A DNA stretch of 64,000 bases, taken from Gemmatimonadota bacterium (GTDB lineage Bacteria; Gemmatimonadota; Gemmatimonadetes; Gemmatimonadales; Gemmatimonadaceae). The notes under the pieces were generated by a model. The model did no database searches. It was not told the origin of the DNA and saw nothing but the letters and a program-made list of their open reading frames with translations. The DNA is taken from assembly GCA_016191225.1 (NCBI GenBank), contig JACPPC010000003.1, positions 1-64,000 of the forward strand, in the 5' to 3' direction. A program made the position numbers and the translations under genes. This document shows positions 2,489 through 20,885 of the stretch, in pieces. Position 1 is the stretch's first letter. The number at the start of each line of letters is the position of its first letter.

Positions 2489-3541
2489 ATGCGCACTCCC
2501 GCCTCACCGATCGCCCGCCAGGCCGCCGCGCACCTCGCCCTGCTGCTCACCGCGCTCGCGCCGGCCTCGGGGCAGCCCGGGGCGACGCCAAAGCCGCCGC
2601 CCGTGCCATCGGTCGCGGTCGCCCGCGACCTCGGGTACTTCGAGACCTCCGCCGCGGGCTGGAAGCCGATCATCATCGCCGAGCGCGACGGCCAACTCTG
2701 GGCGCAACTGGCCGACAGCATGCCGTTGGTGCGCGTCGAGTCCAGCGGCTCGAGCCTGCGCTTCAGCAAGCAGCACGCCGTGGACGCGAGCAATGTCGGG
2801 CGGGTCGGGGGTCGGTTGATGGCCTTCACGCTCGAGGGGGCCCGCTTCACCCGCCGCCCCCTCGGCCCCGAGTCCGGCAACCAGCTCGTGGTCAAGCCGG
2901 TCCGCCCCCTCGCCGACCTGCGCCGCGAGGCGCTGGCCGCGTCGCCGCCGGTCGAGGCCAACCGCGACGCCACCCCCGACCTGGTCGAGCTCGTGAGCCT
3001 CGACCGCGCGATCCACCTCGAGATCCGCTACGCCACCACGAACAACCTCTTTGGCACGCGCTTCTACTCGCAGGCGCGCGCCTTCCTGCGGCGGCCGGCG
3101 GCGCAGGCGCTGGCCCGGGTGAACCAGTCGCTCGAGCCGTACGGCGTGGGGCTGCTCGTGCACGACGGCTACCGCCCGTGGTACGTGACGAAGATGTTCT
3201 GGGACGCCGCCGCCCCCGGGGTGCGGCCCTTCGTCGCCAACCCCGCCGAGGGCTCCAAGCACAACCGTGGCGCCGCGGTGGATCTCTCGCTCTACGACCG
3301 CCGCACCGGCGAGCCGGTCGAGATGCCGAGCACCTACGACGAGACGACCCCACGCGCCAGTCCCGACTGGCCCGGCGGCACCAGCCGCCAGCGCTGGTAC
3401 CGCGACCTCTTGCGCCGAAGCATGGAGGCGCAAGGATTCACCGTGTTCGCGCTCGAGTGGTGGCACTTCGACTTCACCGGGTGGGAGCACTACCCCATCA
3501 TGAACATCCCCTTCGAGCGACTCGGCGCCGCCGGGCGCTGA
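2489..3541 (+). CDS. ddpX: Secreted D-alanyl-D-alanine dipeptidase (VanX/DdpX, peptidase family M15D)
   Basis: The protein has 350 residues from ATG 2489; a GTG at 2432 would add 19 residues ahead of what looks like a signal peptide (hydrophobic ALLLTALAPASG), so 2489 is preferred. Residues ~45-165 form a poorly conserved domain I do not recognise. Residues ~170-350 are VanX-like: the SxHxxGxAxD motif gives zinc ligands H258 and D265, and EWWH gives catalytic E323 and zinc ligand H326. The family hydrolyses D-Ala-D-Ala, used in peptidoglycan turnover or in vancomycin resistance. No vanHA genes are nearby, so a role in wall recycling or nutrition is more likely. It lies just downstream of the IS remnant. 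Confidence 0.85.
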   Translation: MRTPASPIARQAAAHLALLLTALAPASGQPGATPKPPPVPSVAVARDLGYFETSAAGWKPIIIAERDGQLWAQLADSMPLVRVESSGSSLRFSKQHAVDASNVGRVGGRLMAFTLEGARFTRRPLGPESGNQLVVKPVRPLADLRREALAASPPVEANRDATPDLVELVSLDRAIHLEIRYATTNNLFGTRFYSQARAFLRRPAAQALARVNQSLEPYGVGLLVHDGYRPWYVTKMFWDAAAPGVRPFVANPAEGSKHNRGAAVDLSLYDRRTGEPVEMPSTYDETTPRASPDWPGGTSRQRWYRDLLRRSMEAQGFTVFALEWWHFDFTGWEHYPIMNIPFERLGAAGR

Positions 3542-3582
3542 CTGCCGCCCCTGCACACCAACCTCCACCATCACGTGATCCA

Positions 3583-4035
3583 ATGCCGATGAAGCTCAAG
3601 GACCTCCCCGACCACCACGACGCCGAGCTCGTGCTCAAGCTCTACGAGCTCCGCACCGAGCCGATCATGCGCGAGTCGCGGGGCGTGCTCAACAAGGACT
3701 TCTGGCCCACCTCGTTCGCCGACATCCAGCCGTGGCTGCAGTCGTCGCATCCCGGCAACGCCGCCTGGCGCCAGGTCACCAGCTACTGGGAAATGGCCTT
3801 CGGCATGGTGAAGCACGGCGTGCTGCACGGCGACTTCATGCTCGAGAGCAACTCCGAGGGCTTCTTCGTCTTCGCGCGGGTCAAGCCGTACCTCGCCGAG
3901 CTGCGCGCGAGCTCCTCGCCGCGGTCGTTCTTCAACGCCGAGTGGGTGTCGCAGCATTCCGAGTTCGCCAGGGACACGCTGGCGCGCTACGAGAAGGTGG
4001 TCGCCGCCCGCCTCGCCGCCCGCGCCAAGGGCTGA
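3583..4035 (+). CDS. Conserved hypothetical protein, 150 aa
   Basis: A soluble, mostly helical protein without signal peptide, membrane segment or recognised motif. It contains a tryptophan/aromatic-rich middle (WPTSFADIQPW, YWEMAFGMV). ATG 3583 is used; ATG 3589 is an alternative two codons later. It sits 3 bp upstream of the next gene and shares its direction through fumarylacetoacetase, so it is probably co-transcribed with them. Function unknown. Confidence 0.75.
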   Translation: MPMKLKDLPDHHDAELVLKLYELRTEPIMRESRGVLNKDFWPTSFADIQPWLQSSHPGNAAWRQVTSYWEMAFGMVKHGVLHGDFMLESNSEGFFVFARVKPYLAELRASSSPRSFFNAEWVSQHSEFARDTLARYEKVVAARLAARAKG

Positions 4036-4038
4036 GCG

Positions 4039-4935
4039 GTGACCGACGCCCGGCACGCGCTCCTGGCGGGCATCGTCGACTACGCGGGGCTCTTTCCCCC
4101 CGCGTCGCTCGGCATGCCGGAGGTGGTGGCCAACTACGCCTCGTACCGCGCCTCCGGCGACGCCTGGATGCTGGGGCGGCTCGTGGTGCCGGTGGCGCGG
4201 CTCCAGGAGTTCATGGCCGCGCTGGACAGCGACCGCGAGGCGGCGAAGTCCACGGAGGGCGTACCGTGGCTCCTCGCCGCCCTCGGCGGCGGCGACGTGG
4301 GGCGCGACGTGGGCGCCATTCGCAGCTTCAACGACCGGCACGGCGAACGCGCCGTGGTGGATGTGCTCGAGTGCAAGGCCGCCGACGTGCCGGCGATCGC
4401 CTCGATCGGCGCCGCCGTGGGCGGGGCGCACCTCACCACCTACGTCGAGATCCCCGCGGCATCCGACCCGGCGCTGCTGGTAGCGGCGCTCCGCGAGCAC
4501 GGGCTGCGGGCCAAGATCCGCACCGGCGGCGTCACCCCCGACGCCTTTCCGCCCGCCGCGCACGTGGCGCGATTCCTCGCCCGCTGCGTGGCGGCGCAGG
4601 TGCCGTTCAAGGCGACGGCGGGGCTCCACCACCCGGTGCGAGGCGACTTTGTCCTCTCCTACGCCGGCGACGCGCCGCGGGGCACGATGTTCGGCTTCCT
4701 CAACGTCTTCGTCGCCGCGGGGGTGCTCGTGCGCGGCGGCAGCGAGGCCGACGCCGAGCGGGTGCTCGGCGACAGCGACCCGCACGACTTCTCGATCGAG
4801 GGCGACGTGGTCCGCTGGCGTGACCAGGCGTTCTCGCTCGCCGACCTCGGCCGGCTCCGCCACGCCGCCACCGCCTTCGGCTCCTGCTCCTTCCGCGAGC
4901 CGGTGGATGACCTCGCCGCCCTCGCGCCCACCTGA
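4039..4935 (+). CDS. Conserved hypothetical protein next to fumarylacetoacetase
   Basis: This 298-residue soluble protein starts with GTG 4039. Visible motifs are DYAGLFPPASLGM near the N terminus, KIRTGG around residue 156, KATAGLHHP around residue 195 and a FGFLNVF segment. The alternation of short beta-like stretches with charged ends (VEIP, KIRTGG, FKATAGLHH) suggests a barrel-type enzyme, but I cannot name the family. It ends 10 bp before fahA, so a role linked to tyrosine/homogentisate breakdown is plausible by context only. Confidence 0.75.
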   Translation: MTDARHALLAGIVDYAGLFPPASLGMPEVVANYASYRASGDAWMLGRLVVPVARLQEFMAALDSDREAAKSTEGVPWLLAALGGGDVGRDVGAIRSFNDRHGERAVVDVLECKAADVPAIASIGAAVGGAHLTTYVEIPAASDPALLVAALREHGLRAKIRTGGVTPDAFPPAAHVARFLARCVAAQVPFKATAGLHHPVRGDFVLSYAGDAPRGTMFGFLNVFVAAGVLVRGGSEADAERVLGDSDPHDFSIEGDVVRWRDQAFSLADLGRLRHAATAFGSCSFREPVDDLAALAPT

Positions 4936-4945
4936 CCCCGGTCGC

Positions 4946-6280
4946 ATGAACCCGTTCGTGAACGAGACGCACGACGCCGCCCTCCGTTCGTGGGTCGAGC
5001 AGGCGAACGCAACGGGCACTGATTTCCCGGTGCAGAACCTCCCGTTCGGCGCCTTCAAGCGGCGCGGGTCGCAGGGGGCGCCGCACATTGGCGTCGCCAT
5101 CGGCGACCAGGTGCTCGACCTCGCCGCCGCGCTCGACGCGGGGTGCTTCACCGGCGCGGCGGCGCATGCGGCGGCGCTCTGCCGCGGGCCGGTGCTCAAC
5201 CCGTTCCTCGCGCTCGGGCAGCCGGCGTGGAGCGCGCTCCGGCTCGCCCTCTCGCGCCTGTTGCGCACCGGCGCGGGGAGCACCCAGCCGTCCGCGGACG
5301 TGGCGGCGCGCATCCTCGTGCCCATGCGCGACGCCGAGCTGCTCATGCCCGTCGCGATCGGCGACTACACCGACTTCTACGCCTCGGTGCACCACGCCAC
5401 CAACGTCGGCAGCATGTTCCGCCCCGACAACCCGCTGCTGCCCAACTACAAGTGGGTGCCGATCGGCTACCATGGCCGCGCGTCGAGCGTGGTGGTGAGC
5501 GGCGCGCCGGTCCGGCGACCGGTGGGCCAGGTCATGCCCGACGGCGCCGCCGCTCCGACCGTGGGGCCGAGCGCGCGCATGGACTACGAGCTCGAGCTCG
5601 GGGCGATCGTCGGCCCCGGCAATGCGCTTGGCGCGCCGATCCCGATCGGCGAGGCCGCCGCGCACCTGTTCGGCTTCGTACTCCTCAACGACTGGTCGGC
5701 CCGCGACATCCAGGCGTGGGAGTACCAGCCCCTCGGCCCCTTCCTCGCCAAGAACTTCGCCAGTACGATCTCGCCGTGGGTCGTCACGGCCGAGGCGCTG
5801 GCGCCCTATCGCACCGCGGCGTACGCGCGGCCGGCCGGCGACCCGGCGCCGCTCCCGTACCTCACCGACGCCACCGACCAGTCGCTCGGTGCCTTCGGCA
5901 TCACGCTCGAGGTCGCGCTGCGATCGGCGACGATGCGCGAGTCCGGTGCGTCACCGCACGTGCTCAGTCGCTCGCAGGCGACCGACCTGTACTGGACCGT
6001 GGCGCAGATGCTCGCCCACCACGCCAGCGGCGGCTGCAACCTGCAGCCGGGCGACCTGCTCGGCAGCGGCACGATCAGCGGCGCGACGAAGGAGAGCCGC
6101 GGCTGCCTGCTGGAGCTCGCGTGGCGCGGCACGGAGCCGGTGAAGCTCCCCGCTGGCGAGGAGCGGCGGTTCCTGCAGGACGGCGACGAGGTGGTGATGC
6201 GCGCCTGGTGCGAGCGCGAGGGGTCCCGGCGAATCGGCTTTGGCGAGTGCCTTGGCACGATCGTGGCCGCGACCGCGTGA
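4946..6280 (+). CDS. fahA: Fumarylacetoacetase
   Basis: A 444-residue cytoplasmic hydrolase that splits 4-fumarylacetoacetate to fumarate and acetoacetate, the last step of tyrosine degradation. The N-terminal SH3-like domain (PVQNLPFGAF) and the catalytic FAH domain are both present. Metal-site and active-site signatures include DYTDFYASVHHATNVG, the MDYELELG metal-binding segment, LLNDWSARDIQ and NFASTISPWVV. Length matches the family. ATG 4946 is chosen; the frame is open upstream but that part overlaps the preceding gene. The stop overlaps the next start. Homogentisate dioxygenase and maleylacetoacetate isomerase are not in the window. Confidence 0.95.
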   Translation: MNPFVNETHDAALRSWVEQANATGTDFPVQNLPFGAFKRRGSQGAPHIGVAIGDQVLDLAAALDAGCFTGAAAHAAALCRGPVLNPFLALGQPAWSALRLALSRLLRTGAGSTQPSADVAARILVPMRDAELLMPVAIGDYTDFYASVHHATNVGSMFRPDNPLLPNYKWVPIGYHGRASSVVVSGAPVRRPVGQVMPDGAAAPTVGPSARMDYELELGAIVGPGNALGAPIPIGEAAAHLFGFVLLNDWSARDIQAWEYQPLGPFLAKNFASTISPWVVTAEALAPYRTAAYARPAGDPAPLPYLTDATDQSLGAFGITLEVALRSATMRESGASPHVLSRSQATDLYWTVAQMLAHHASGGCNLQPGDLLGSGTISGATKESRGCLLELAWRGTEPVKLPAGEERRFLQDGDEVVMRAWCEREGSRRIGFGECLGTIVAATA

Positions 6281-7507: not shown

Positions 7508-9058
7508 CTAGCCCCCCGGTATCGCCCGCCCGTGGCACGCCACGCACACCGACGGGTTCTTGGCCTTCGCCGTCGCGGCGTTGAACCCTGGCCCATGCGG
7601 ATTGAACCGGTAGCCGCCGCCCACCGCCGAGTGACAGGCGGTGCAGTCGCGCTCGGCGTGGCACGAGGCGCACGACTCGAGACTCTGCCGCGCCGCTTGG
7701 CCGTGCCCCAGGCTGAAGCCGCGAAACGCGTCGTGGTACCCCGTACGCCCGATCCGCCGCCTCGCCACGAGCCCCGACTGCTGGTGGCACGCCTGGCAGA
7801 ACTGCGCGGGGTTGTGGCACTCGCTGCAGTTCATCTCGCGCGAGTACGCCGAGGCCGGATGGCGCGTGAGGAACCCCTGCGCGTGGTATCGTGCCTGGCG
7901 GCTCCCCTCGGGGCGGTGGCACTCGAGGCAGGTCGAGCGCAGGTGACAGCTCTCGCAGGTGGCGGGGCGGGCGCTCGCCTGCGGCCCATGGCGCTCCTTG
8001 AAGTCGCTGGTGTGGCTCGCCGGCGGCACCCGCTTGAGGTGCGCCCCCGGCGCGCGCCCGGGGCCCGCGGTGGGCATCGTGGTCACGGCGCGCGGCGGGA
8101 TCCCGACATGGCAGCTGAAGCAGCTTTCGCGCGAGTGGCAGCTCGAACAGGTGGCCGTCGACCGCTCGGCATCGCGGCCATGGAAGCCAAGCCAGCCCGC
8201 CGCGCGGTGCGTGGGCGGCACCGGCTGCGTGCCCGTGTACACCGGCGGCCGGTCGTCGAGCGCGAGTGACAGGATCACCGGCGATTCGGCGGCGTTCACG
8301 TGGCAGCTCATGCACAGGTTGCGCGAGTGGCAGGTGGCACAGCTCGCCGCCACGGTGGGGTGCTCTCCCGGCAAGCGCCCCGGCACCTTGGCCGCCCTCC
8401 CGTGCCCGCCGAGCACGAAGTCGGCCGCGGCATGCGACTGCGGCTTGGGGAAGGTCTTGATCCATTCGCGGGTAAGGCTCGGCGCGTCGGTGAGGCGCAC
8501 GTGGCAGGTGGCGCAGACCTCGTTGCCGTTGTCCACGTGCGGCGCCTTGAGCCCGTGGCACTGCAGGCAGTTGCCGACCACCGCATTGCGCACCGCCATG
8601 CGCGGCGCCCCGGGCTCGGTGTGGCAGCCGGCGCAGTTGCGCATCATCGCGCTGTCGGCGGGGTTCCTGGCCGCGGCGGCCTTGCCGTGCGCCTCGTGCG
8701 TGAACCGGCGGTTCCCGGCGCGCGGCCCCACCCGCGGCTCCCATGTGATGCGCGGCTTGACCGTGCCGTCGTGGCACGACGCGCACCCCTGCGCCGTGGG
8801 CCACATCGACTGTCCCGGATCCACCACGCCGGCGTGGCACGAGGTGCAGACCGGGAAGACCTTGGCGTGCTTGTCGTGCGGGAACCGCGTCGGCGAGGCT
8901 GCGCGGGGCTGGGACACCGTCGCCACCTGCGGCAGCGCGAACGCCGCGCGCCACGGCAGGGCGAGGGCGAGCACGGCGCTCGCGACGAGCGCCATCGGCG
9001 CGATCGCCCCTCCCACGCGCGCCATCCTCGCGGCCCCCGCTCCCAGGCTCGGGCTCAT
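7508..9058 (-). CDS. Exported 16-heme cytochrome c
   Basis: A 516-residue protein with an N-terminal signal peptide (hydrophobic MALVASAVLALAL ending near AFA) and sixteen CxxCH heme-attachment motifs: CTSCH, CASCH, CAGCH, CLQCH, CATCH (twice), CMSCH, CSSCH, CFSCH, CESCH, CLECH, CSECH, CQACH, CASCH, CTACH and CVACH. Extra histidines between motifs (FPHDKH, FTHEAH) could be distal ligands. No lipobox or C-terminal membrane anchor is seen, so it is periplasmic or outer-face. ATG 9058 overlaps the stop of the barrel gene (ATGA). It is the last gene of the cytochrome operon. By analogy with porin-cytochrome conduits it could be the heme wire associated with the barrel. There is no CxxCK, so it is not NrfA. 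Confidence 0.9.
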   Translation of the reverse strand: MSPSLGAGAARMARVGGAIAPMALVASAVLALALPWRAAFALPQVATVSQPRAASPTRFPHDKHAKVFPVCTSCHAGVVDPGQSMWPTAQGCASCHDGTVKPRITWEPRVGPRAGNRRFTHEAHGKAAAARNPADSAMMRNCAGCHTEPGAPRMAVRNAVVGNCLQCHGLKAPHVDNGNEVCATCHVRLTDAPSLTREWIKTFPKPQSHAAADFVLGGHGRAAKVPGRLPGEHPTVAASCATCHSRNLCMSCHVNAAESPVILSLALDDRPPVYTGTQPVPPTHRAAGWLGFHGRDAERSTATCSSCHSRESCFSCHVGIPPRAVTTMPTAGPGRAPGAHLKRVPPASHTSDFKERHGPQASARPATCESCHLRSTCLECHRPEGSRQARYHAQGFLTRHPASAYSREMNCSECHNPAQFCQACHQQSGLVARRRIGRTGYHDAFRGFSLGHGQAARQSLESCASCHAERDCTACHSAVGGGYRFNPHGPGFNAATAKAKNPSVCVACHGRAIPGG

Positions 9059-10536
9059 CGCGGCAAGGGCCGCGCGCGCGGCAGTGGCGTGCGGTCCGCT
9101 CCCGAGCCGACCGCCACGCTGAACCCGGCGCGCAGCCGGAGTTGCGAAAGCGACGACGCGCTCGCGTCGGGGCGGTACCGGTCGTCGCTCACGAGCGCGG
9201 CGTCGCACCACACCCGGTGCTGGGGCGAGAACTGCCATTCGCCGCGGCCGCCGATCCAGCGGCTCGTGGCGTCGTAGTAGCGCAGTTCGAGGGGGCGGGC
9301 CAGGCTCCCGGCGTACAGGTCGACCGAGAACACCGCGCTCGGCGCCCACGTCACCGACGCGTCGGTGAACCGCCCCGCGGCGCCGGGGCCGCGCTCCAGG
9401 CCGAAGCTTCCCTCGAGGGTCCATGCGGTGCCCACCGTCGCCGTCGCGCCCGTGCTCATGCGCCACCCACCGGCTTCGAGGCGCGGCACGATCGACGTGT
9501 TGATTTCCGCGTTGTCATAGCGGTACGACTCGCCGCGGGCGTTGAGCGAGAGCCAGCCGTTGGGCCGCACCTGCGCCGAGGCCGTGACCGCGTTGTAGGG
9601 CACGGGGCTGAAGGCGCCCCATAGCGTCCAGAGGCTGAAGTAGGGGACGTAGCGACGCGCGCCGACGGTCACCGCGTACCGCGGCTGAACGTACGTGAGC
9701 GCGAGTTCGGTGGTGCCCATCTTCCCCTCGGCCATGTTGTACTGCGTGCCGCCGCTGGCGCGGAACGGTCCGACCTGTGCGCCCAGCGACAGCGCCGTCC
9801 GCTCCGACACGAAGTTTCCGTCCTCGGGGTCGATCTCGCGGCGGTACTCGGCCCGGGCGTCGATCCACCGGAAGCGCCAGGTCGCCTCGGCGCCGCCGAG
9901 GATCTGGCGATCGCGCGGGCGCCATTCGTCGAGCGGGTTGAGCGCCGGATTGCTCGCCGTGACCGCGGCCGCCTGCCCAAGCCCCCAGCCGCCGTAGCCG
10001 GTGAGCTCCAGCGCGGCGTCGTCCCACCGCACCTTGAGCCACCCGCCGTCAAAGCCGATCGGCTCGAGCCGCGACGCCACGAGCTGCCGCCCCACGCGCA
10101 GCGTGACCGGCGACCGCTGGTACTCGACGTAGCCCTCGAGGAGCTGCGCGTTGGGCGTCGTCCCCGGCCAGGGGGCGTCGCCGCCGGCGTCGGTCACGAG
10201 CCGACCGGTGGCGCGAACGGCGAGTCCCTCGACGCCGAGGCCCCACAGCACCATGCTCGCCGAGACAGCCACCGGGAGGGCGCGCAGCTCGGGGCCCGGC
10301 CGCAGGTAGTAGCAGTATGGCCCGTTGTTGCAGCGCAGGGCGAAGCCATCGGGCGTCACGAGCCCGCCGCTCGCCGTCGGCACCGCGAGCGCGGCGTCGA
10401 TGCTGTCGGGCGCGAGCCCGCGATACGAGATGGCCTGTGCCCTCGCGTCGAGGCGAATGCGGTAGTCCTGCGCCGCGGCGGGAAGGGTCCACGCCGCCAG
10501 CGCCAGGGCGGCCACGAGGGCGCGGAGCGCGGTCAT
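9055..10536 (-). CDS. Outer-membrane beta-barrel protein of the cytochrome operon (porin-cytochrome type)
   Basis: A 493-residue protein with a signal peptide ending PAAAQ and then long runs of alternating polar/hydrophobic residues rich in Gly, Tyr, Trp and Arg. This is the pattern of amphipathic strands of an outer-membrane barrel. Near residue 70 a CxxxxxxC pair (CNNGPYC) could form a disulfide. The start overlaps the stop of the 20-heme cytochrome gene and its stop overlaps the 16-heme gene start, so the three products are made together. Family resemblance to MtrB/PioB or Geobacter Omb barrels is by context and architecture; I see no diagnostic motif. It could instead be a general substrate porin. 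Confidence 0.75.
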   Translation of the reverse strand: MTALRALVAALALAAWTLPAAAQDYRIRLDARAQAISYRGLAPDSIDAALAVPTASGGLVTPDGFALRCNNGPYCYYLRPGPELRALPVAVSASMVLWGLGVEGLAVRATGRLVTDAGGDAPWPGTTPNAQLLEGYVEYQRSPVTLRVGRQLVASRLEPIGFDGGWLKVRWDDAALELTGYGGWGLGQAAAVTASNPALNPLDEWRPRDRQILGGAEATWRFRWIDARAEYRREIDPEDGNFVSERTALSLGAQVGPFRASGGTQYNMAEGKMGTTELALTYVQPRYAVTVGARRYVPYFSLWTLWGAFSPVPYNAVTASAQVRPNGWLSLNARGESYRYDNAEINTSIVPRLEAGGWRMSTGATATVGTAWTLEGSFGLERGPGAAGRFTDASVTWAPSAVFSVDLYAGSLARPLELRYYDATSRWIGGRGEWQFSPQHRVWCDAALVSDDRYRPDASASSLSQLRLRAGFSVAVGSGADRTPLPRARPLPR

Positions 10537-12611
10537 CGCGGCACCCGCGAAACCAGCTTCGCCTTGTGCGCCTCGGGCTCGGCGAGGAAGTGGCAGCTGG
10601 TGCACTCGCGCTGGTCGTTGTGTCCCTGCGCCTTGCTCGCGTGGCAGGTGGCGCAGAAGCTGCGCGTCGGCACGAGCCGTGCGATCGTGGTGGCGGTGTG
10701 GCAGGCATCGCAGCGCTGGTGCGTGACGTCGGCGGGGGCGTGGGCGGCCTTGGGATCGGGAATCTTGTGGCACCCCGAGCAGTCGCGGCGGGCCGAGTGA
10801 TGGTCGCTGTGGCAGTCCTTGCACGTGACCGTGGTCGGCGCGGGCGCCATCGTGACCGGCGTGACGTGGCAGTCCGTGCAGGCCTTGGAGACGTGCTTCT
10901 CGTGCAGGAAGCCCACCGTGCGCGCGTTGGCCGGCCGGCCCGGCACGGTCACCGTCACGGTCACGCGCCGCACCGCGCCGTACTTCTCCTTGTGGTGGCA
11001 GCTGGCGCACTTGTCGGGCGTCGGCGACTGGTGGTGGCAGATCGCGCAGCCGCGCGGCCGCTCGAAAGTGAGCCGGCCGTGCCCCGACCCGGTCTGATGG
11101 CATTCCAGGCACGCCCGTTTCGCGTGCCTCGCATGGGGAAAGCTGTCGGTGGGGGAGGGCGGGGGGGGGCGCGCGGCGACGGCCCGTCCTTGCGGCGATC
11201 GCGGCGTCCCCCGGGCCGGTTCGGGGAGGGACTCCGCGGCCGGCCCGTCGCCGCCCGTTGGGAGCTCGGCGCGGCCGGCGTCGTCGTCGGCGGCGAGGAA
11301 TGGCCCGTGCCAACGCCCCTCGCGCGGCGCCACGCCCGCCGCCGGCCCCGCGCCCCTCGGAGGCCTGGGGGTCGCGGCCGGAGCCGGGGCGGCCGGGCGC
11401 AGCGCCTTGACGGTGTCGAAGGCAACCGGTGGCCTGGGCCCGCCGCTCTCCCGCACGCGCGTGTGGCACCCCTGGCACTCGCTCGCGTCCACTCCCGCGC
11501 GGTGAGGCACGTGGCAGGTGAGGCAGCTCGAGGCGACCTTGCGGTGGTTCTCGCCGGCGTGGAACGGCTTCTCGCGATAGTCGTCATGGCACCCCGAGCG
11601 GGCGCAGCTCTTGGCCGCGGCCGCCGGGGTCTTCTGCGTGTGCGGGTTGTGGCAGGCGCCGCACTTGCCGCCGTGCGGGTCGCGCCCCTCGTCGAAGTCC
11701 TTGAGGACCTTCTGCATCTCGTGGCAGCCCAGGCACTGGGGCTTGCCGGGCACGAGCGTCCCGCGCGCCGAGTCGCGCGTGGCGAGGGCGGGGACGTCCT
11801 CGGTGAAGCCGTGGCAGCTCGTGCAGTGGCGCACCGTCTGGGTTTCCATCTTGCCCAGCACGACCGTCGTGTTCCTGGCGTCGTGGCAGTTGCTCTGGCC
11901 GCAGGTCTTCTCCACCGGCCGGAACTGGTGCACCTCGACGCCGTGGCAGGTCACGCACTGCAGGTTCTTGAGCACCGCCGAGTCCGACTCGAGGTGCACG
12001 CGATGGCCGGCGGTGCCGGCGATCCGCTTCCACTTGGCGGTGTCGCCGGTGACGTGGCAGGTGCGGCAGACCTCGTTGGGCACCTTGGCGTGCTTGCCGA
12101 TCTCCCTCGGCCGGTTGGCGACCCACAGGTAGAGCTGCCGCATGCTGGCGTAGAGCGGCTGCTGGTGGCAGTTGTGGCACGACAGCTTGCCGTGCTTGTT
12201 CTCGGCGTTCGAGAAGCGCTGGAACGCCTGGTTCATCACGTGGCAGCCGGTGCAGAAGTCGTTGTCGTTCTGCGTGTAGTTCCAGGTCGCGGCGCCGGCG
12301 CCGCCCACGGTGGCGAGCACCAGCACGCCGGCGAGCGCCAGCCCCCAGCGCATCGCCAGCTCGCTGGCGCCGAGCCAGGCGGCGATCCTCGCGCGCCGCA
12401 GCCACACCCAGCGCACGGCGAGGAGGCCGACGACGCAGGCGACGGCGAACAGCGTGATCTGCAGCCACGTGGGAATGCTGTTCAGCAGGAAGCGCACGAC
12501 CACCGCCACGCCGCCCGGGAGGGGCGACGTGACGACGGTCGAGTCGACCAGGGCGCCGTGCGATTGCCCGAGCGCCGCTGCCGGGTGCGCTACCCCGGCA
12601 ACGGCGCTCAT
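10533..12611 (-). CDS. Membrane-anchored NapC/NirT-type 20-heme cytochrome c
   Basis: A 692-residue protein from ATG 12611 (ATG 12623 is also possible). Two membrane segments lie at about 48-70 and 88-110, then a NapC-like start (NDNDFCTGCHVMNQAFQRF, first Cys 120). There are 18 CxxCH and two CX4CH motifs (CGQSNCH and CARSGCH). Eleven motifs precede and nine follow a heme-free Pro/Ala-rich linker of about 100 residues. NapC-type proteins take electrons from menaquinol, so this protein probably links the quinone pool to periplasmic carriers. The linker codons contain a run of nine G on the plus strand at 11161-11169. It follows the lipoprotein gene by 34 bp and overlaps the barrel gene. Confidence 0.88.
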   Translation of the reverse strand: MSAVAGVAHPAAALGQSHGALVDSTVVTSPLPGGVAVVVRFLLNSIPTWLQITLFAVACVVGLLAVRWVWLRRARIAAWLGASELAMRWGLALAGVLVLATVGGAGAATWNYTQNDNDFCTGCHVMNQAFQRFSNAENKHGKLSCHNCHQQPLYASMRQLYLWVANRPREIGKHAKVPNEVCRTCHVTGDTAKWKRIAGTAGHRVHLESDSAVLKNLQCVTCHGVEVHQFRPVEKTCGQSNCHDARNTTVVLGKMETQTVRHCTSCHGFTEDVPALATRDSARGTLVPGKPQCLGCHEMQKVLKDFDEGRDPHGGKCGACHNPHTQKTPAAAAKSCARSGCHDDYREKPFHAGENHRKVASSCLTCHVPHRAGVDASECQGCHTRVRESGGPRPPVAFDTVKALRPAAPAPAATPRPPRGAGPAAGVAPREGRWHGPFLAADDDAGRAELPTGGDGPAAESLPEPARGTPRSPQGRAVAARPPPPSPTDSFPHARHAKRACLECHQTGSGHGRLTFERPRGCAICHHQSPTPDKCASCHHKEKYGAVRRVTVTVTVPGRPANARTVGFLHEKHVSKACTDCHVTPVTMAPAPTTVTCKDCHSDHHSARRDCSGCHKIPDPKAAHAPADVTHQRCDACHTATTIARLVPTRSFCATCHASKAQGHNDQRECTSCHFLAEPEAHKAKLVSRVPR

Positions 12612-12645: not shown

Positions 12646-14223
12646 TTACCTGCGCGGAGGCAAGGATGCGGTGTGCAGCGTGGCGTTGAACGGCCCGCCA
12701 ATCCTGGGGCCGCCCAGATTGGCCGGCATCACCGCGGAGGCGACCGGCAGCCCGTAGTAGGTCTTGACGTAACTGATCGTGGCCACGAGCAGGGCTTCGC
12801 AGAGGAACGGATTGTGCACGCCCTTCGAGCTGTCGGTGTTCGACTGGCCGTACTCGCCGCACAGCCGGGCGTTGAACTCCGCGCCCTCGGCCGGCGTGAT
12901 CTTGCCGTCGGTATTGCTCCACTCGCCCGGCATGGTGCTCTTGAGCGTGGCGAGCAGGCCGCCGTCGGCCGGGGCCGCCGTGATCGAGAGACTGCCGTTC
13001 GCGTCCACCCAGAGCTGGTCCGTGTAGAACTTCATGCGGGCGCGCACGGTGGCGAAGGCCGAGGCGGCCACGGCCGCGGTCGCGTGGCACCCGGACTGCG
13101 TGCACGACTTCCACGACCGGGCGGTCTCGGAGTAGGCGCAGGTCTTGTCGGCGGTCGGCTTGCCCGTGGCGTCCAGGCAGGGAATCGGCCGGAAGAGGTG
13201 GCCGGTGGACTGGAACGTGAACGCACCGGTCGCCGCGTCGGTCACGGTCAGCCGCGTCACGTGGCAGCCGGCGCAGAGGCGCGGGTTCGCGCCCGTCGCG
13301 TGCGAGCCATAGATCGCCGTCGTGTCGTAAATGAAGCCCGGCGGCCGCCAGCCGGCCTCGCCCAGCAGCACCGCGCCCTGCGGTGCGTGCGGCGAACTGC
13401 TGGTGACCAGCGGCTCGCTGCGCCGCATGTGGCACTGCATGCACAGGTTCTGCGACGGGTCGTTCGAGGTGATCGAGAGCCGCAGCTGGCGCGTGTTTTC
13501 CGAGCCATGCGGCGCATGGCAGACGGCGCAGGTCGTCGGCTGGTAGGCCGTGGCCGAGTCACGCTCGGCGTAGTTGGTGCCGCCGTCCCATCGCTCCAGC
13601 GCCTTGCGGCCGTCGTGGCAGGCGGCGCAGCCGGACGACACGTTGCTCGCCGCCGGGATGTACACGACGTTGTGCCCCGATGCGGCCCACTCCTCGGCGA
13701 ATGGCGAGTGCGTTCCGGTGTGACAGTCACCGCAGTTGCCCTTGCCCGTCATGGCGAGGCGGGCCAGCGGCCGCACGATCGAGGCGGCCCCAACCCCTTC
13801 CACATGCGCCTGGCCGGGGCCGTGGCAGTTCTCGCACTGCACGTCATAGTAGGTCGAGTCCTTGACCGCCTGATACCCGACCACCGTGCCCTGCAGCTTG
13901 TTGCCGTTGCCCGTCACCGCGTGGCACTCGAAGCAGCTCGCCGCCTTGCCGGGACTGTTGTTCGCGTCGGTCCACGCACTGGCATGCTTGGTCGTCACCC
14001 AGCTGGCCTGGAGCTCGGCGTGACAGTTGCCGCAGGTCGTCCGCTTCGTCGACGCCTGGTAGTAGCCCAGGAATCCGCTCGCCGCGTCCTTCGGCGGGTT
14101 GAACGGGGCCCGGTCCCTGTAGACGATCTTGTCGCTGGTATTGCACCCGGCGAGCGTGAGGGCCGCCACGGCGGCGGCCGTCAGGAGCCGATTGATCCGG
14201 GTGGTCGCTCGATCTTTGCGCAT
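12646..14223 (-). CDS. Nine-heme lipoprotein cytochrome (cytochrome c554-like N terminus)
   Basis: A 525-residue lipoprotein: a short signal ends in the lipobox LAGC. Eight CxxCH motifs and one CX4CH (CTQSGCH) are present. The order CGNCH, tryptophan/TKHASAW, CFECH, then VQCENCHGPGQAH is the pattern of the cytochrome c554-like family. About 150 C-terminal residues lack heme motifs. The lipid anchor suggests attachment to the outer membrane, possibly exposed at the surface as a terminal reductase or contact site. It is the first gene of the minus-strand operon, divergent from the Mo-enzyme operon. Confidence 0.88.
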   Translation of the reverse strand: MRKDRATTRINRLLTAAAVAALTLAGCNTSDKIVYRDRAPFNPPKDAASGFLGYYQASTKRTTCGNCHAELQASWVTTKHASAWTDANNSPGKAASCFECHAVTGNGNKLQGTVVGYQAVKDSTYYDVQCENCHGPGQAHVEGVGAASIVRPLARLAMTGKGNCGDCHTGTHSPFAEEWAASGHNVVYIPAASNVSSGCAACHDGRKALERWDGGTNYAERDSATAYQPTTCAVCHAPHGSENTRQLRLSITSNDPSQNLCMQCHMRRSEPLVTSSSPHAPQGAVLLGEAGWRPPGFIYDTTAIYGSHATGANPRLCAGCHVTRLTVTDAATGAFTFQSTGHLFRPIPCLDATGKPTADKTCAYSETARSWKSCTQSGCHATAAVAASAFATVRARMKFYTDQLWVDANGSLSITAAPADGGLLATLKSTMPGEWSNTDGKITPAEGAEFNARLCGEYGQSNTDSSKGVHNPFLCEALLVATISYVKTYYGLPVASAVMPANLGGPRIGGPFNATLHTASLPPRR

Positions 14224-14637
14224 AGCGTGATCCCCGAGTGTGAGCGGAGCCGGGCGGCCGGCCTGTCCTCCGTGCCGCGAAACCTCGCAATCGACAGCCG
14301 TTGCAGGCATGGTCCACATCGCGTGCTCTCGTGACGGTTGCCTTCGGAATGGAGTTCGTTCCGTCGCTTGCTGGTTCTTCGTTCGTAGGTACAATTACGG
14401 CAACGTCCAGAACGTGAGCAGTCAGGGAATCGCCCCCGGGGTGTCAGGCGATCGCCCGCTGAAATGTGGGGCTGTCGGTGCGACAGGGGAATACCTGACG
14501 CGCTGTCAGGATATCGGCCCTGTTCCGTGGGGATTTGCGGGACTCCCCATTGGAGCCGGCGGCGTTATCCCTGTCCCCGCTCCGATTCGCGCAAGGGGAT
14601 GCCGCCCCACGGCATGCGTTTCCCGCACAGGCTGCCG
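14224..14637. other. 413-bp divergent control region between the two electron-transfer operons
   Basis: No gene is supported here. The segment is less G+C-rich than its surroundings around 14330-14410 and contains a plus-strand promoter candidate at 14368-14395. A short perfect hairpin (cctgac/gtcagg, 14494-14510) lies in the leader of the Mo-enzyme gene, which would be about 235 nt long. I looked for an FNR-type TTGAT-N4-ATCAA box and found none. No convincing minus-strand promoter was identified. Confidence 0.6.
14368..14395 (+). promoter_or_regulatory. Candidate sigma-70-type promoter for the Mo-enzyme operon
   Basis: TTGCTG at 14368-14373 and TACAAT at 14390-14395 are separated by 16 bp and stand out in G+C-rich DNA. 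They point toward the molybdoenzyme gene at 14638. Confidence 0.45.
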
Positions 14638-16983
14638 ATGAGTCCGGTCGACCGCAGGACGTTCCTGAAGGGAATCGCCACCATCTCGGCGGCGACCGCC
14701 GGCTCGGCGGTGGCTCCGGCCCTCGGCCTGCCCGTGGCCGGGGACCTCGTTGCCGCCGCCGAGCCCGCACCCTCCTGGAAGCGGACGCCCTGTCGCATGT
14801 GCGGCGTCGGCTGCGGTCTCCTGGTGGGAATCGAGAATGGCCGCGCCGTGGCCGTGCGGGGCGATCCCGATTCGCCGGTGAGCAAGGGGCTCGCCTGCGC
14901 CAAGGGCTACTATGCCGTGCAGGCCCTCTATGCCCGCGACCGGATCACCCGCGCGATGGTCCGCACCAATGGCACGCTCGCCCCGGTGCCGGTGGCCGCC
15001 GCCCTCGACCTCGTGGCCCGCCGCCTGCGCGAGACGGTGGAGCGGCACGGCAAGGACAGCGTCGCGCTGTACGGCTCGGCGCAGTGGACCGTCCCCGATG
15101 CCTACGTCGCCTCGAAGCTCTTCAAGGGTGCCCTCGGCACCAACAACGTCGAGAGCAGCTCGCGCCTCTACGCCGCGAGCGCCATGGCCGGCCTGCAGGG
15201 GACCTTCGGCCTCGACGGCGCGATCGGCTGCTACGAGGACATCGAGCACGCCGACGTCTTCGTGCTCTGGGACGAAAACCTCGCCGAGACCGAGCCCGTG
15301 CTCTTCTCGCGCATGCTCGACCGGCGGCGGCGCGACCCCGCCGTGCGCATCGTCGACCTCGCCACGCGCACCACCCGCACCAGCTACGCCGCCGACGCCT
15401 CGCTGCTCCTCGCGCCGCACTCGGCGTCGGCGGTCGCGAACGCGATCTGCAACGAGCTGGTCGAGCGGCGGTGGGTGCGCCGCGAGTTCGTCGACCGGCA
15501 CGTGGCCTTCAAGCGGGGCCCGGAAGGGATCGGTCACGGGCTGGCGAGCGACGCCCTCGTGCCCGACGACGCCTCCAGCGCCACGTGGGACCAGTACGTG
15601 AAGTTTCTCGGCGACTACTCGCCGGAGCATGCGGCGCGCGTCTCGGGACTCGCCGCCGATCGCATTCGCTGGCTGGCGTCGCTCTATGGCGATCCGCAGC
15701 GCCGCGTCATGTCCGTCTGGGGCGGCAACGCCAACCGCCACTCGCGCGGGACCTGGCTCAACAACCTGCTCTACAACATCCACCTGCTCGTGGGGAAGGT
15801 CGCCTCGCCCGGCAACAGCCCGTTCTGCACCACCGGGCAGCCGGGGGGGGGCAGCGCCGTGCACGACGCCGGCACCCTCTCCCACACGCTCCCCCGCGGC
15901 GTGGTGACCGACGAGCGCGACCGGCGCCGCGCCGCCGGGATCTGGGGTGTGCCCGCCGACCGCATCGATCCCAGGCCCGCAGGCCACGCGCTCGCCATGT
16001 ATCGCGCCCTCGAGCGCGGCGACATCCGCTTTCTCTGGATCCAGGCCACCAACCCGATGGTCAGCCTGCCCAACGTGGATCGCTACCGCGGCGCCGCGGG
16101 CCGCGACGACCGGTTCATCGTCGTCTCGGAGGCGTACCCCACCGCCACCACCGACGTCGCCGACGTGGTGCTGCCGGCGGCCCTCTGGTTCGAGCGCGAG
16201 GGGGTCTTCGCGAGCATGGAGCGTCGCCTGCAGCACTTCGAGCGCATGACCGCGCCCCCCGGCGACGCGATGGGCGACGCCTGGCAGATGATCGAGGTCG
16301 CCCGCCGGCTCGGGCACGCGTCGCTCTTCCCGTGGGACCGTCGCGACCACGCCGCGAAGGCCTGGGAGGAGTACTCCCGCTTCCACGACGACGCCGGCAG
16401 CGCGCTCCCGGCGCTCGCCGCCCTGCAGGCGAAGCCCGGCCTGCAATGGCCGTTCACCGGCGCGCGCGAGACCCGCTGGCGCTACAACACGGCGCACGAC
16501 CCCCGCGCCGACCGTGCCCGCGGCGACTTCGACTTCTACGGGCACGCCGACGGCCGCGCCTGGGTCTGGCTCCGCCCGCACGACGCCCCCGCCGAGGCGC
16601 CCGATCGCGCCTATCCCCTCTGGCTCGTCTCGGGCGCGGTGCTCGAGCACTCCGGCGCGGGAGCGCTCACGCAGCGCATCCCCACGCTCCATCGGGCGGT
16701 CCCGCGCGCGTACGTGGAGGTCAACCGCGACGACGCCGCGCGGCTCGGCATTCGCGACGGCGAGCGGGTGCTCGTGCGGAGCCGCCGCGGTGCCCTCGAG
16801 CTCGATGCCCGCATCGACTACCGCTCCCAGCCCCCGGCCGGCCAGCTCTTCATTCCCTCGTTCGACGAGTCCATGCCGGTCAACCGGCTGATGCTCGACG
16901 CGAGCTGCCCCGTGTCGGGACAGCCGGCCACGAGCACCTGCGCCGTGCGCCTCGAGCGGCTGGGTGCGGGCGGCGGCGCATGA
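14638..16983 (+). CDS. Tat-exported NapA-like molybdopterin oxidoreductase lacking the Mo-ligand Cys
   Basis: A 781-residue protein with a twin-arginine signal (VDRRTFLKG). The [4Fe-4S] site is C52-x2-C55-x3-C59...C87. The whole chain aligns by eye with periplasmic nitrate reductase NapA (GCYEDIEHAD, GTWLNNLLYNIHLL, TGQPGGGSAV, then a C-terminal molybdopterin dinucleotide domain with VLEHSGAGALTQRIP). NapA has a Cys in RxCMASA that binds Mo. Here the same place reads RLYAASA, so the ligand is Tyr178 or absent. An extra Cys397 replaces the usual Ser in PFSLTGQP. Substrate is therefore uncertain; ordinary nitrate reduction is doubtful. It overlaps the next gene by ATGA. ATG 14638 is chosen because it gives the Tat signal. 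Confidence 0.88.
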   Translation: MSPVDRRTFLKGIATISAATAGSAVAPALGLPVAGDLVAAAEPAPSWKRTPCRMCGVGCGLLVGIENGRAVAVRGDPDSPVSKGLACAKGYYAVQALYARDRITRAMVRTNGTLAPVPVAAALDLVARRLRETVERHGKDSVALYGSAQWTVPDAYVASKLFKGALGTNNVESSSRLYAASAMAGLQGTFGLDGAIGCYEDIEHADVFVLWDENLAETEPVLFSRMLDRRRRDPAVRIVDLATRTTRTSYAADASLLLAPHSASAVANAICNELVERRWVRREFVDRHVAFKRGPEGIGHGLASDALVPDDASSATWDQYVKFLGDYSPEHAARVSGLAADRIRWLASLYGDPQRRVMSVWGGNANRHSRGTWLNNLLYNIHLLVGKVASPGNSPFCTTGQPGGGSAVHDAGTLSHTLPRGVVTDERDRRRAAGIWGVPADRIDPRPAGHALAMYRALERGDIRFLWIQATNPMVSLPNVDRYRGAAGRDDRFIVVSEAYPTATTDVADVVLPAALWFEREGVFASMERRLQHFERMTAPPGDAMGDAWQMIEVARRLGHASLFPWDRRDHAAKAWEEYSRFHDDAGSALPALAALQAKPGLQWPFTGARETRWRYNTAHDPRADRARGDFDFYGHADGRAWVWLRPHDAPAEAPDRAYPLWLVSGAVLEHSGAGALTQRIPTLHRAVPRAYVEVNRDDAARLGIRDGERVLVRSRRGALELDARIDYRSQPPAGQLFIPSFDESMPVNRLMLDASCPVSGQPATSTCAVRLERLGAGGGA

Positions 16984-17813
16984 CGGCCGCTCCCCGCGGG
17001 CGCTCCGCCCTGCCGATGCGCCTCTTCCTCGCCGCCTCGGCGGTGGTGGCGACCGCGGCGCTCGTCGTCGGTGGCCGTCGGGTGGCCTCCGGCCGCGCGG
17101 CCGCCGCGCGCGCGCTGGCCGACCGGCTGCCCGTGGCCGTGGTCGTGGCCGAGCCCCCCGCCGAGCCGATCGCCGCCGAGGCGCAGGTGTTCCGCACCCG
17201 GGCGGCCGCGCTCGCGATCGAGCCGTCCACGGAGCGGCGGCGGCCGGCGCATCCGCGATCCCTCGCGACCTGGCGCTCGCTGCGCGCCTATCCCGGGGCG
17301 CCGCCGCGCGTGCCGCACGGGCTCACCCCGGCCGAGTTCCGCACCGGCGGCTGCAAGACCTGTCACGAGCGCGGCGGCTTCTCCGAGCGCTTCGGCGCCT
17401 ACGTGCCCCTCACGCCGCATCCGCAGATGGGGGCCTGCCTGCAGTGCCACGTCGGCAACGCCACGCTGATGGCGATCGCGCTCCCCAGCACCGAGCCGAG
17501 CGCGCGCTGCCGCCAGTGCCACGCCCCGGGCGCCATGAAGTGGCGCGACTCGTCGCTCGCCTGGGCGCCGATGGCGTGGCCGAAGCTGGCGCCGGTCACC
17601 AGCGGGCGCACGCCGCCGCCCATCCCCCACCGGCTGCAGATGCGCGAGAACTGCCTCTCCTGCCACTCCGGCCCGTCCGGTGTCATGGAAATCCAGACCA
17701 GGCACCCCGAACGCGCCAACTGCCGGCAGTGCCATGTGCCTTCGACCGGCGACGTCGCGCCCTTCGTTCGCGTCGCACAGGGTGGCGGCCTCCGTCCCGG
17801 GTTCGCGCCATGA
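16980..17813 (+). CDS. Five-heme NapB-like cytochrome c
   Basis: A 277-residue exported or N-terminally anchored protein (hydrophobic LFLAASAVVATAALVV near residues 15-30). Five CxxCH motifs: CKTCH, CLQCH, CRQCH, CLSCH and CRQCH. The pattern PHGLTPAEFRTGGCKTCH, the PLTPHP motif and RENCLSCH...ANCRQCHVP resembles NapB, the diheme partner of NapA, extended by three hemes. It probably receives or delivers electrons for the molybdoenzyme, whose gene it overlaps by 4 bp. The following gene also overlaps. Confidence 0.85.
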   Translation: MTAAPRGRSALPMRLFLAASAVVATAALVVGGRRVASGRAAAARALADRLPVAVVVAEPPAEPIAAEAQVFRTRAAALAIEPSTERRRPAHPRSLATWRSLRAYPGAPPRVPHGLTPAEFRTGGCKTCHERGGFSERFGAYVPLTPHPQMGACLQCHVGNATLMAIALPSTEPSARCRQCHAPGAMKWRDSSLAWAPMAWPKLAPVTSGRTPPPIPHRLQMRENCLSCHSGPSGVMEIQTRHPERANCRQCHVPSTGDVAPFVRVAQGGGLRPGFAP

Positions 17814-18565
17814 CCGGGCGATCGCTGCGTCTCGGCGCCGCCGGCCTCGCCGCCGCGTTCCTGGCCCTCGGCTGCGGCCAGCGCGGTGGCGCGCCGGCGC
17901 GTGAGCGCGATGGGGGCGAGCGCGTGCACAACATTCCGTCGTCGGGGGCGGCGATCGCGCACGTCGACTCCGAGCAGGCGGCGCGCAACGCGACCCGCGA
18001 GCCGGGCGCGCTCGAGACCGTCACCGCGGGACCGGTCGCCCCGTGGAAGGGGCCCGGTGGCAAGCCGTTCGAGGTCGCCCTCCGCACCGCCGACCCGACC
18101 ACCGCCCTCGCCCGCAAGTTCGGCACGATCACCCTGCAGACGTCGGCCCGGGCGCGCGCCCCCGACCTCGGGCAGTATCCCTGCACCTCGTGCCACCTCG
18201 GCCGAAAGATCACCCTCGCCGAGAAGCGCATTCCCGACGCCCACCAGAACATCAAGCCGCAGCACCCCAGGCAGACGGGAGGTGCCTGCAAGACCTGCCA
18301 CGCGCCCGACAACGTCGAGCTGCTCGCGCTCCAGAGCGGCGAGCGGGCGACCCTCGACCACACCTACCGCGTGTGCGCCCAGTGCCACTTCGCGCAGGCC
18401 AACGCCTGGGCCGGCGGCGGCCACGGCAAGCGGCTCGACGGCTGGCAGGGGCGCCGCGTGCTGATGGGCTGCGCCGACTGTCACGACCCGCACAAGCCCG
18501 CGCTCGAGCGGCGCATCCCCTTCCGCGCGCCGGTACTGGCGCGACCGAGAGCCGACGACCCATGA
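17810..18565 (+). CDS. Tetraheme cytochrome c lipoprotein
   Basis: A 251-residue protein with a lipobox (LALGC) after a short signal. Four CxxCH motifs: CTSCH, CKTCH, CAQCH and CADCH. The first ~100 mature residues carry no heme and are Ala/Gly/Arg-rich, a likely spacer from the membrane. Both ends overlap neighbours by ATGA. A role as an electron shuttle subunit of the Mo/Fe-S/NrfD complex is inferred from the operon. Confidence 0.82.
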   Translation: MTGRSLRLGAAGLAAAFLALGCGQRGGAPARERDGGERVHNIPSSGAAIAHVDSEQAARNATREPGALETVTAGPVAPWKGPGGKPFEVALRTADPTTALARKFGTITLQTSARARAPDLGQYPCTSCHLGRKITLAEKRIPDAHQNIKPQHPRQTGGACKTCHAPDNVELLALQSGERATLDHTYRVCAQCHFAQANAWAGGGHGKRLDGWQGRRVLMGCADCHDPHKPALERRIPFRAPVLARPRADDP

Positions 18566-19539
18566 GCGACGCCCGCCTGACGGACCCTGCCGTGGATGCC
18601 GCCGACGCCACGCTCCTGCAGAAGCGCGTCGACCGGCGGCGTGCCCTCGGGATCCTGCTCGGCGGCGCGGCCGTCGCCACGCAGGCGGCGGCGGCCTGCT
18701 CGCCCGTCGCGCCCCTCTCCGACGAGGAGCGCGAGGTCAAGCTCCTCGCCTGGCGCGAGTACATCAAGGGGAACTACCGCTTCATGACCGAGGCCGAGCG
18801 CGCCGAGACCATCGCCCGGCTCGAGCGCATCGCCAAGGTCAAGCGCGGCGTCGACGTCCGCATCCAGTCCACCGGCGCCCAGCCGGGGGTGGAGTTCGGC
18901 TACGCCTTCAACATCTCCAAGTGCAAGGGCTTCCGCAGCTGCGTCCAGGCCTGCATCAACGAGAACAACCTCGACCGGCGCGCGGCCACCCAGTACATCC
19001 GCATCTTCGAGATGGAGAACGGCGTCGTGGACCTCGAGGAGGCCGACGCGACCTTCCAGCACGAGGTGCCCGCCGAGGGGCACTTCTACATGGGCACGCA
19101 GTGCTTCCAGTGCGCCAACCCGCCATGCGTCAAGGTCTGCCCCGTTGGCGCCACCTGGCAGGAGCCCGACGGCATCACCGTGATCGACTACGACTGGTGC
19201 ATCGGCTGCCGCTACTGCATGGCGGCCTGCCCGTACTGGGCCCGGCGCTTCAACTGGAGCGAGCCCGAGGTGCCGGTCGACCAGCTGAACCCGAACCAGC
19301 ATTACCTCGGCAACCGCGCCCGCAAGACCGGCGTGGTGGAGAAGTGCACCTTCTGCATTCACCGCACGCGGCAGGGCCGGCTCCCGGCGTGCGCCGAGGC
19401 GTGCCCGACCGGGGCGCGCGTGTTCGGCAACCTGCTCGACCCCGACTCGGAGATCCGCTGGGTGCTGGCGAACAAGAAGGTCTTCCGGCTCAAGGAAGAC
19501 CTGAATACCGAGCCGCGTTTCTGGTACTTCACCGACTGA
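18562..19539 (+). CDS. Tat-exported 4Fe-4S dicluster (DmsB/NrfC-like) subunit
   Basis: A 325-residue iron-sulfur protein with a twin-arginine signal (VDRRRALGILLGG) and a Cys at 46 that may be a lipid site. Four cluster sites are visible. Site 1 reads C121-KGF-RS-C127-VQA-C131: the usual second Cys is Phe124, so it has only three Cys and may hold a [3Fe-4S] or altered cluster. Sites 2-4 (CFQCANPPCVKVCP, CIGCRYCMAACP, CTFC...CAEACP) look complete. The family carries electrons between a catalytic molybdo-subunit and an NrfD-type membrane subunit. Both neighbours fit this. Confidence 0.9.
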   Translation: MSDARLTDPAVDAADATLLQKRVDRRRALGILLGGAAVATQAAAACSPVAPLSDEEREVKLLAWREYIKGNYRFMTEAERAETIARLERIAKVKRGVDVRIQSTGAQPGVEFGYAFNISKCKGFRSCVQACINENNLDRRAATQYIRIFEMENGVVDLEEADATFQHEVPAEGHFYMGTQCFQCANPPCVKVCPVGATWQEPDGITVIDYDWCIGCRYCMAACPYWARRFNWSEPEVPVDQLNPNQHYLGNRARKTGVVEKCTFCIHRTRQGRLPACAEACPTGARVFGNLLDPDSEIRWVLANKKVFRLKEDLNTEPRFWYFTD

Positions 19540-19546
19540 GGCCAAC

Positions 19547-20836: not shown

Positions 20837-20885
20837 TGCGACCGCCGGCAACCGGCCGGCCGACTTTCCCCTTGAGGTGATGACC

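Follow-up and report, generated by a model that had tools for sequence, protein, structure and literature searches.

The gene at positions 10533–12611 (minus strand) of contig JACPPC010000003.1 from a Gemmatimonadota bacterium raises the question of whether a single protein can join an inner-membrane electron-input module to a periplasmic electron carrier. The DNA analysed was a stretch of 64,000 nt (positions 1–64,000 of the contig; hereafter the window), in which this gene encodes a membrane-anchored cytochrome with 20 heme motifs and forms a four-gene cassette with genes for a 9-heme lipoprotein, a putative outer-membrane β-barrel and a 16-heme cytochrome. To our knowledge, known bacteria divide electron transfer across the periplasm among separate proteins. 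Our analysis indicates that the 20-heme protein probably makes up the inner-membrane and periplasmic section of a porin–cytochrome conduit for extracellular electron transfer in Gemmatimonadota, in which one molecule may move electrons through the whole space between inner and outer membrane.

One reading frame with eleven plus nine heme motifs

The gene is a single ORF that runs uninterrupted from an ATG at 12611 to 10533 and comprises 692 codons. Its heme motifs (18 CXXCH and two CX4CH) fall into two groups, with motifs 1–11 starting at residues 120–379 and motifs 12–20 at residues 501–670. The CX4CH motifs, CGQSNCH (residue 237, from window position 11903) and CARSGCH (residue 336, from 11606), correspond to hemes 5 and 9 of the first group. 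The 11-heme N module, or head, occupies 11463–12254 and the 9-heme C module, or tail, 10536–11111; between them lies a heme-free Pro/Ala-rich linker of 117 residues (11112–11462, residues 384–500). Two membrane helices are predicted by hydropathy ahead of heme 1 (12288–12470, residues ~48–66 and 85–108), separated by an Arg-rich loop, and none was detected by the same criterion C-terminal to the hemes; the positive-inside rule predicts that the N-terminus is periplasmic. All the counts of the preliminary description, which was made from the sequence (11+9 hemes, two helices, two CX4CH motifs), were thus recovered in one frame, as was the composition of the linker, whose length slightly exceeds the ~100 residues estimated there.

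The same description had identified a run of nine G residues (11161–11169) as a place where a frameshift or assembly join might have merged two genes, and the run does sit at the linker/tail boundary, where it encodes Pro codons just N-terminal to the tail (in '...AARPPPPSPTDSFPHARHAKRACLECH'). However, homolog searches, which covered the Gemmatimonadota plus one pattern scan of named genomes (two relatives, both Gemmatimonadetes metagenome-assembled genomes), returned 36 distinct fused sequences after loci were pooled and each tail sequence was counted once. These come from independent Gemmatimonadota genomes, are mostly 36–62 % identical to the window protein and without exception carry exactly 20 motifs, arranged 11+9 in one frame. 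A frameshift or join at the G run is therefore ruled out, and an artefactual merger of two genes has a negligible probability. The third codon position also retains the highest GC content throughout the linker in the frame of the 20-heme protein.

Across these 36 sequences, motif spacings are near-fixed and wide variation is confined to the linker (56–170 residues, median 80). The balance of CXXCH and CX3–4CH motifs shifts among homologs (19+1, 18+2, 17+3) while their sum stays at 20. Because the spacing is nearly invariant across the family, the heme pattern is not due to chance. Conserved histidines outside the motifs number nine for the 11 hemes of the head, which also has three conserved methionines, and ten for the nine hemes of the tail, and together these residues would be enough to provide almost all hemes with a second axial ligand.

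Head, tail and their natural separation

Profile searches with the two halves, which the preliminary description had recommended, gave different relatives for each. The head profile matched NrfH (2j7a_C, E value 2.9e-7) in a region comprising the membrane helix and the first hemes; the second predicted helix coincides with the NrfH anchor. This helix directly precedes the CXXCHxM motif of heme 1, whose methionine is conserved in 94 % of the 36 sequences. The profile match and the conserved heme-1 methionine support a role for the head in electron input at the inner membrane. The tail profile matched c7/c3-type and nonaheme/16-heme cytochromes. A further match of head hemes 7–11 to 6r2q_A (E value 5e-5) is dispersed along the repetitive CXXCH spacing, and no MtrA ancestry was deduced from it.

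Separate searches for the two modules in 249 Gemmatimonadota genomes located the head in 44 and the tail in 67. Stand-alone tails with 9–10 motifs were present in nine loci uncut by contig ends. In six of these (L077, L078, L079, L080, L081 and L084), the tail fills the cassette slot that the 20-heme gene occupies in the window; in two others (L082 and L089), it lies beside a nitrate reductase (Nap)-like operon, and in L066 it takes a lipoprotein form beside a complete cassette. Loci L085 and L083, which lie at contig ends, were left out of this count (L085 is labelled 'alone' in the tail tree), and L019 is likewise cut by a contig end.

The head also occurs alone: genome G214 carries a stand-alone 11-heme version (L049, 8083–9501, minus strand), with a tail-only cassette ~14 kb away on the same contig. 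A third kind of separation was revealed by comparing L080 of genome G111 (3888–4769, plus strand) with the fused L095 of G084, a member of the same genus (2876–4972, plus strand). The flanking DNA is similar and the leader is the same, but L080 keeps only part of the first helix as a scar; the eleven hemes of the head and the linker are missing, and the sequence continues in frame with the tail. Judged from this alignment, L080 is an in-frame loss of the head. Given the stand-alone tails, the stand-alone G214 head and the G111 deletion, the two halves are, by their genomic distribution, true modules, in agreement with the earlier proposal of a fusion for which split homologs should be sought. 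Two other forms of the head were noted. The C-terminus of L049 bears several LPxGHP-type repeats where the tail would be, a possible docking sequence, and L050 of G151 (3612–4838, minus strand) is a four-heme version followed by further hydrophobic segments and located outside any conduit cassette.

The tail is also found behind two other N-terminal kinds. A different NapC/NirT head with 13 hemes precedes the same kind of 9-heme tail in L063 (11082–13250, minus strand), L083 (2619–4742), L087 (5742–7868), L088 (5829–8333) and L090 (6416–8485), always giving 22 motifs and mostly near conduit genes, while in L020/L063, L086 and L090 the tail follows a 5-heme part. In a phylogeny of 54 tail sequences, the fused and the stand-alone tails are intermixed, with nine changes between the two states, at least three of which are required by branches with good support. 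The fused tail of the window has the stand-alone L077 tail as its sister (98/89), inside a fused clade. Repeated head loss from a fused ancestor would be the simplest history, the alternative being repeated gain. We tentatively suggest that the 9-heme tail could be a detachable arm, used alone or on different heads (the 11-heme head, the 13-heme NapC head or the 5-heme part), that one protein would thereby close the gap between quinone pool and conduit without a soluble shuttle, and that lineages repeatedly lose or swap the head and keep the arm.

The cassette and the proposed electron path

The order 9-heme lipoprotein, 20-heme protein, barrel candidate (~470–510 residues) and 16-heme cytochrome is kept in distant genera of several families. 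In the window, all four genes are on the minus strand: the lipoprotein at 12646–14223, the 20-heme protein, the barrel candidate (493 aa, with a signal peptide) at 9055–10536 and the 16-heme periplasmic cytochrome at 7508–9058. Since the 20-heme and barrel genes, and the barrel and 16-heme genes, share 4-nt ATGA overlaps, these three genes are probably transcribed together. The preliminary description mentioned a barrel, and a putative one is encoded by the gene that follows the 20-heme gene.

The lipoprotein of the window has the lipobox LAGC; among aligned homologs, nine heme motifs are present in 14/14 and a recognisable lipobox in 13/14. Its profile matched 6i5b_A with an E value of 2.5e-15, C-terminal region included, and weakly matched hydroxylamine oxidoreductase (1fgj) and cytochrome c554. 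We take 6i5b to be OcwA, the nine-heme terminal reductase of a metal-reducing bacterium, and the lipoprotein is presumed to be the cell-surface terminal cytochrome. The window lipoprotein might also be a surface terminal reductase in its own right. The 16-heme protein profile matched the 16-heme cytochrome 2e84_A (E value 5.5e-12). For the 493-aa protein, the signal peptide, the position in the cassette, weak matches to β-barrel Pfam families and the hydrophobicity pattern are consistent with a putative barrel: amphipathic alternation exceeded that of shuffled sequences in 17/17 barrel candidates (z 1.5–4.8, compared with −0.8 to 0.7 in four control proteins). No MtrB Pfam match was found in it. 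A barrel encoded together with periplasmic and surface multiheme cytochromes, the surface location here being presumed, is the general hallmark of a porin–cytochrome conduit, and the four-gene cassette, on which the preliminary description of the 20-heme gene is silent, is the likely functional unit.

The fusion, its modules, the cassette and the split and deletion forms can be read directly from the genomes, and from them we infer the following path. The two N-terminal helices would anchor the 20-heme protein in the inner membrane, where the quinone pool, or some other inner-membrane donor, would exchange electrons with the 11-heme NapC/NrfH-like head, whose hemes would relay them onward. The flexible Pro/Ala-rich linker would tether the c7/c3-like tail to the head, allowing the tail to swing between the head and the outer-membrane part of the system (barrel, 16-heme cytochrome and 9-heme surface lipoprotein), and the tether would thus stand in for the soluble shuttle of other bacteria. 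A swinging carrier fits better than the continuation of a rigid wire because a linker that is poorly conserved and varies threefold in length cannot fix the tunnelling distance between hemes 11 and 12. As stand-alone tails occur in the same cassette, the partner of the tail would seem to be the outer-membrane part. The earlier suggestion that one protein could span from membrane to barrel is possible, but the linker fits a flexible tether better than a continuous wire, and another cytochrome, with 16 hemes, has its own gene beside the barrel. Outward flow is favoured solely through the likeness of the surface protein to 6i5b_A, and the Nap-like operon found in eight loci would also suit the inward direction.

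Several observations weigh against this proposal. The NapC similarity is limited to the helix and first hemes of the head. With the Pfam family NapC/NirT (PF03264), the window protein alone scored 19.2–22.3 bits, below the gathering cut-off of 24.1, and reached 25.2 bits with its frame neighbours counted; the family as a whole fared better, with matches in 9/14 members (best E value 2.1e-6) and 28.4 bits for the stand-alone head L049. In the profile alignment to 2j7a_C, neither Lys82 nor Asp89 of NrfH is conserved in the head: the Asp89 column is Gln, and Lys82 falls within an 8-residue stretch that the family is without. We assume these to be residues of the quinol site, near hemes 1 and 2. 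For the barrel, none of the Pfam matches was confident, and a 17-sequence profile found no PDB homolog at E values up to 1, in a database that presumably holds MtrB within the MtrCAB entry 6r2q. AlphaFold2 models, built from three sequences each, were unusable (pLDDT of 30 for the 20-heme protein and 27 for the barrel). Finally, several genomes have a tail-only cassette and do not belong to the head-bearing set, which makes the head dispensable for the conduit. The name 'quinol dehydrogenase' given to the protein at the outset is accordingly best kept provisional: the NrfH-like helix and first hemes and the CXXCHxM motif speak for it, but the NapC likeness is partial, the score of the protein alone lies below the cut-off and Lys82 and Asp89 are absent, so that quinol oxidation by the head can only be proposed.

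Divergent from the cassette lies an operon at 14587–21821 (plus strand), encoding NapA-like, 5-heme NapB-like, tetraheme lipoprotein, DsrO-like, DsrP/NrfD-like and SPFH proteins. The NapA-like protein scored 708.7, below the NapA equivalog cut-off of 904. This operon is often, though not always, beside the cassette: it adjoins the cassette or a gene for the tail at eight loci (the window, L052, L058, L077, L078, L079, L082 and L089), in many genera and whether or not the head is fused, and it is absent from the stretch read around the cassettes of L053–L057, L059, L061, L062, L065 and L066. Outside the window, the same genome has three heme-copper oxidase-type genes (G000:C1:31461-32765, C3:365472-366761 and C22:73673-75010), which makes additional respiration of oxygen or NO by the host probable.

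These neighbours bear on two rival explanations. With the same architecture run in reverse, the surface cytochrome would be reduced by Fe(II), a mineral or a partner cell, and the electrons would run inward via tail and head, ending in the quinone pool or the adjoining NapA-like periplasmic reductase. The eight loci with the Nap-like operon, the heme-copper oxidase-type enzymes as possible sinks and the described reversibility of conduits of such type (PMC10734462; PMC6295460) are in keeping with electron uptake, but the ten cassettes without the operon are not, and neither is the resemblance of the surface protein to 6i5b_A, presumably a terminal reductase; we consider uptake rather unlikely. 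Slightly less probable still is the idea that the head is no quinone enzyme at all and merely recalls NrfH in its sequence frame, serving as a relay that is anchored in the membrane and receives electrons from a different inner-membrane complex such as the neighbouring DsrOP/NrfD-type module. In its favour are the missing Lys82 and Asp89, the tail-only cassettes that work without a head and the adjoining DsrP-like NrfD protein, which exceeds its NCBIfam cut-off. Against it, the CXXCHxM signature is kept at heme 1 beside the membrane helix, the Nap/DsrOP operon is often not near in head-bearing genomes and a like tail is also joined to the 13-heme NapC head, which reaches 35.9 and 44.3 bits with PF03264; on balance, a relay is unlikely too. 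If the cassette were instead an enzyme system at the cell surface that serves a soluble acceptor (such as an N- or S-oxide, and not minerals or electrodes), with the lipoprotein as the catalytic subunit, this would agree with the lipoprotein profile, that is, the 6i5b_A match and the weak ones to 1fgj and cytochrome c554. However, a barrel and three large multiheme proteins (45 hemes) form the usual layout for electron transfer across the outer membrane and would be needless for such a system, which makes this explanation improbable.

Relation to known conduits and significance

The conduit that we prefer, with outward flow through a tethered tail, is nearest in design to PCC3 of Fe(II) oxidisers, which comprises a porin, a large extracellular multiheme cytochrome and a 21–27-heme periplasmic cytochrome proposed to span the periplasm (PMC5566968, PMC10734462). 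Both systems combine a porin with extracellular and large periplasmic multiheme cytochromes, but the PCC3 periplasmic cytochrome is not reported to be membrane-anchored, whereas in the cassette a NapC-like inner-membrane part is fused to the 20-heme protein and an extra 16-heme protein is present. PCC3 also has a separate five-helix inner-membrane protein of ~300 aa that bears two HX13H motifs (PMC5566968); no such separate protein is encoded among the four genes of the cassette (HX13H motifs were not searched genome-wide).

None of the inner-membrane families surveyed in PMC6295460 fits the 20-heme protein: these are ImcH (three helices, a CX3CH first motif and 6–10 hemes), CbcL (six C-terminal helices) and CymA (four hemes). 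ImcH of Geobacter is similar in having a multi-helix N-terminus, a last helix and first hemes that are NapC/NirT-like and more hemes behind (PMC6295460), but its gene does not lie next to mtrAB/mtoAB and a 9-heme tail is missing from it, and the 20-heme protein differs in its two helices, CXXCHxM and 11+9 hemes. The six-helix C-terminal b-type cytochrome region of CbcL/MtrH/MtoC is not present. With CymA, NapC and NrfH of the NapC/NirT family, the protein shares an N-terminal membrane helix with CXXCHxM and a series of hemes behind it, and its profile matches NrfH. NapC/NirT proteins usually have four or five hemes and one helix, however, in contrast to an 11-heme head with two helices (one in family f3), and relative to NrfH the 20-heme protein has other quinol-site residues and a fused 9-heme tail.

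Among complete systems, MtrCAB with CymA and STC/FccA in Shewanella likewise links an inner-membrane quinol dehydrogenase, a periplasmic carrier, a barrel and a surface cytochrome; there, the gap between CymA and MtrCAB is too wide for direct contact and soluble shuttles are needed (PMC5971433). The Shewanella carrier is thus a separate soluble protein, unlike the tethered carrier proposed here, and the cassette barrel has no sequence match to MtrB. The Pcc system of Geobacter (OmbB-OmaB-OmcB) resembles the cassette in that multiheme cytochromes of the periplasm and the outer membrane are clustered with a barrel other than MtrB, but its partners have 8 and 12 hemes and no fused inner-membrane module is reported (PMC4245776).

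Porin–cytochrome conduits are therefore known, and what appears to be new is the covalent fusion of an inner-membrane input head to a periplasmic carrier. No published description of the 20-heme fusion or of the cassette was found in the literature on Gemmatimonadota and porin–cytochrome terms, with subscription papers and preprints outside its scope. The periplasm is roughly 200 Å wide, and the way in which electrons traverse it is an unsolved question of extracellular electron transfer. In the protein described here, a covalent link appears to attach the shuttle to the inner-membrane module, and the natural fused, head-excised and fully split forms make the choice between a tether and a free shuttle directly testable. 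Gemmatimonadota are abundant in soil and have been little studied for extracellular electron transfer. If our reading is true, the 20-heme protein and its partners would represent a widespread conduit for this phylum, the head module being present in 44 of the 249 genomes sampled.

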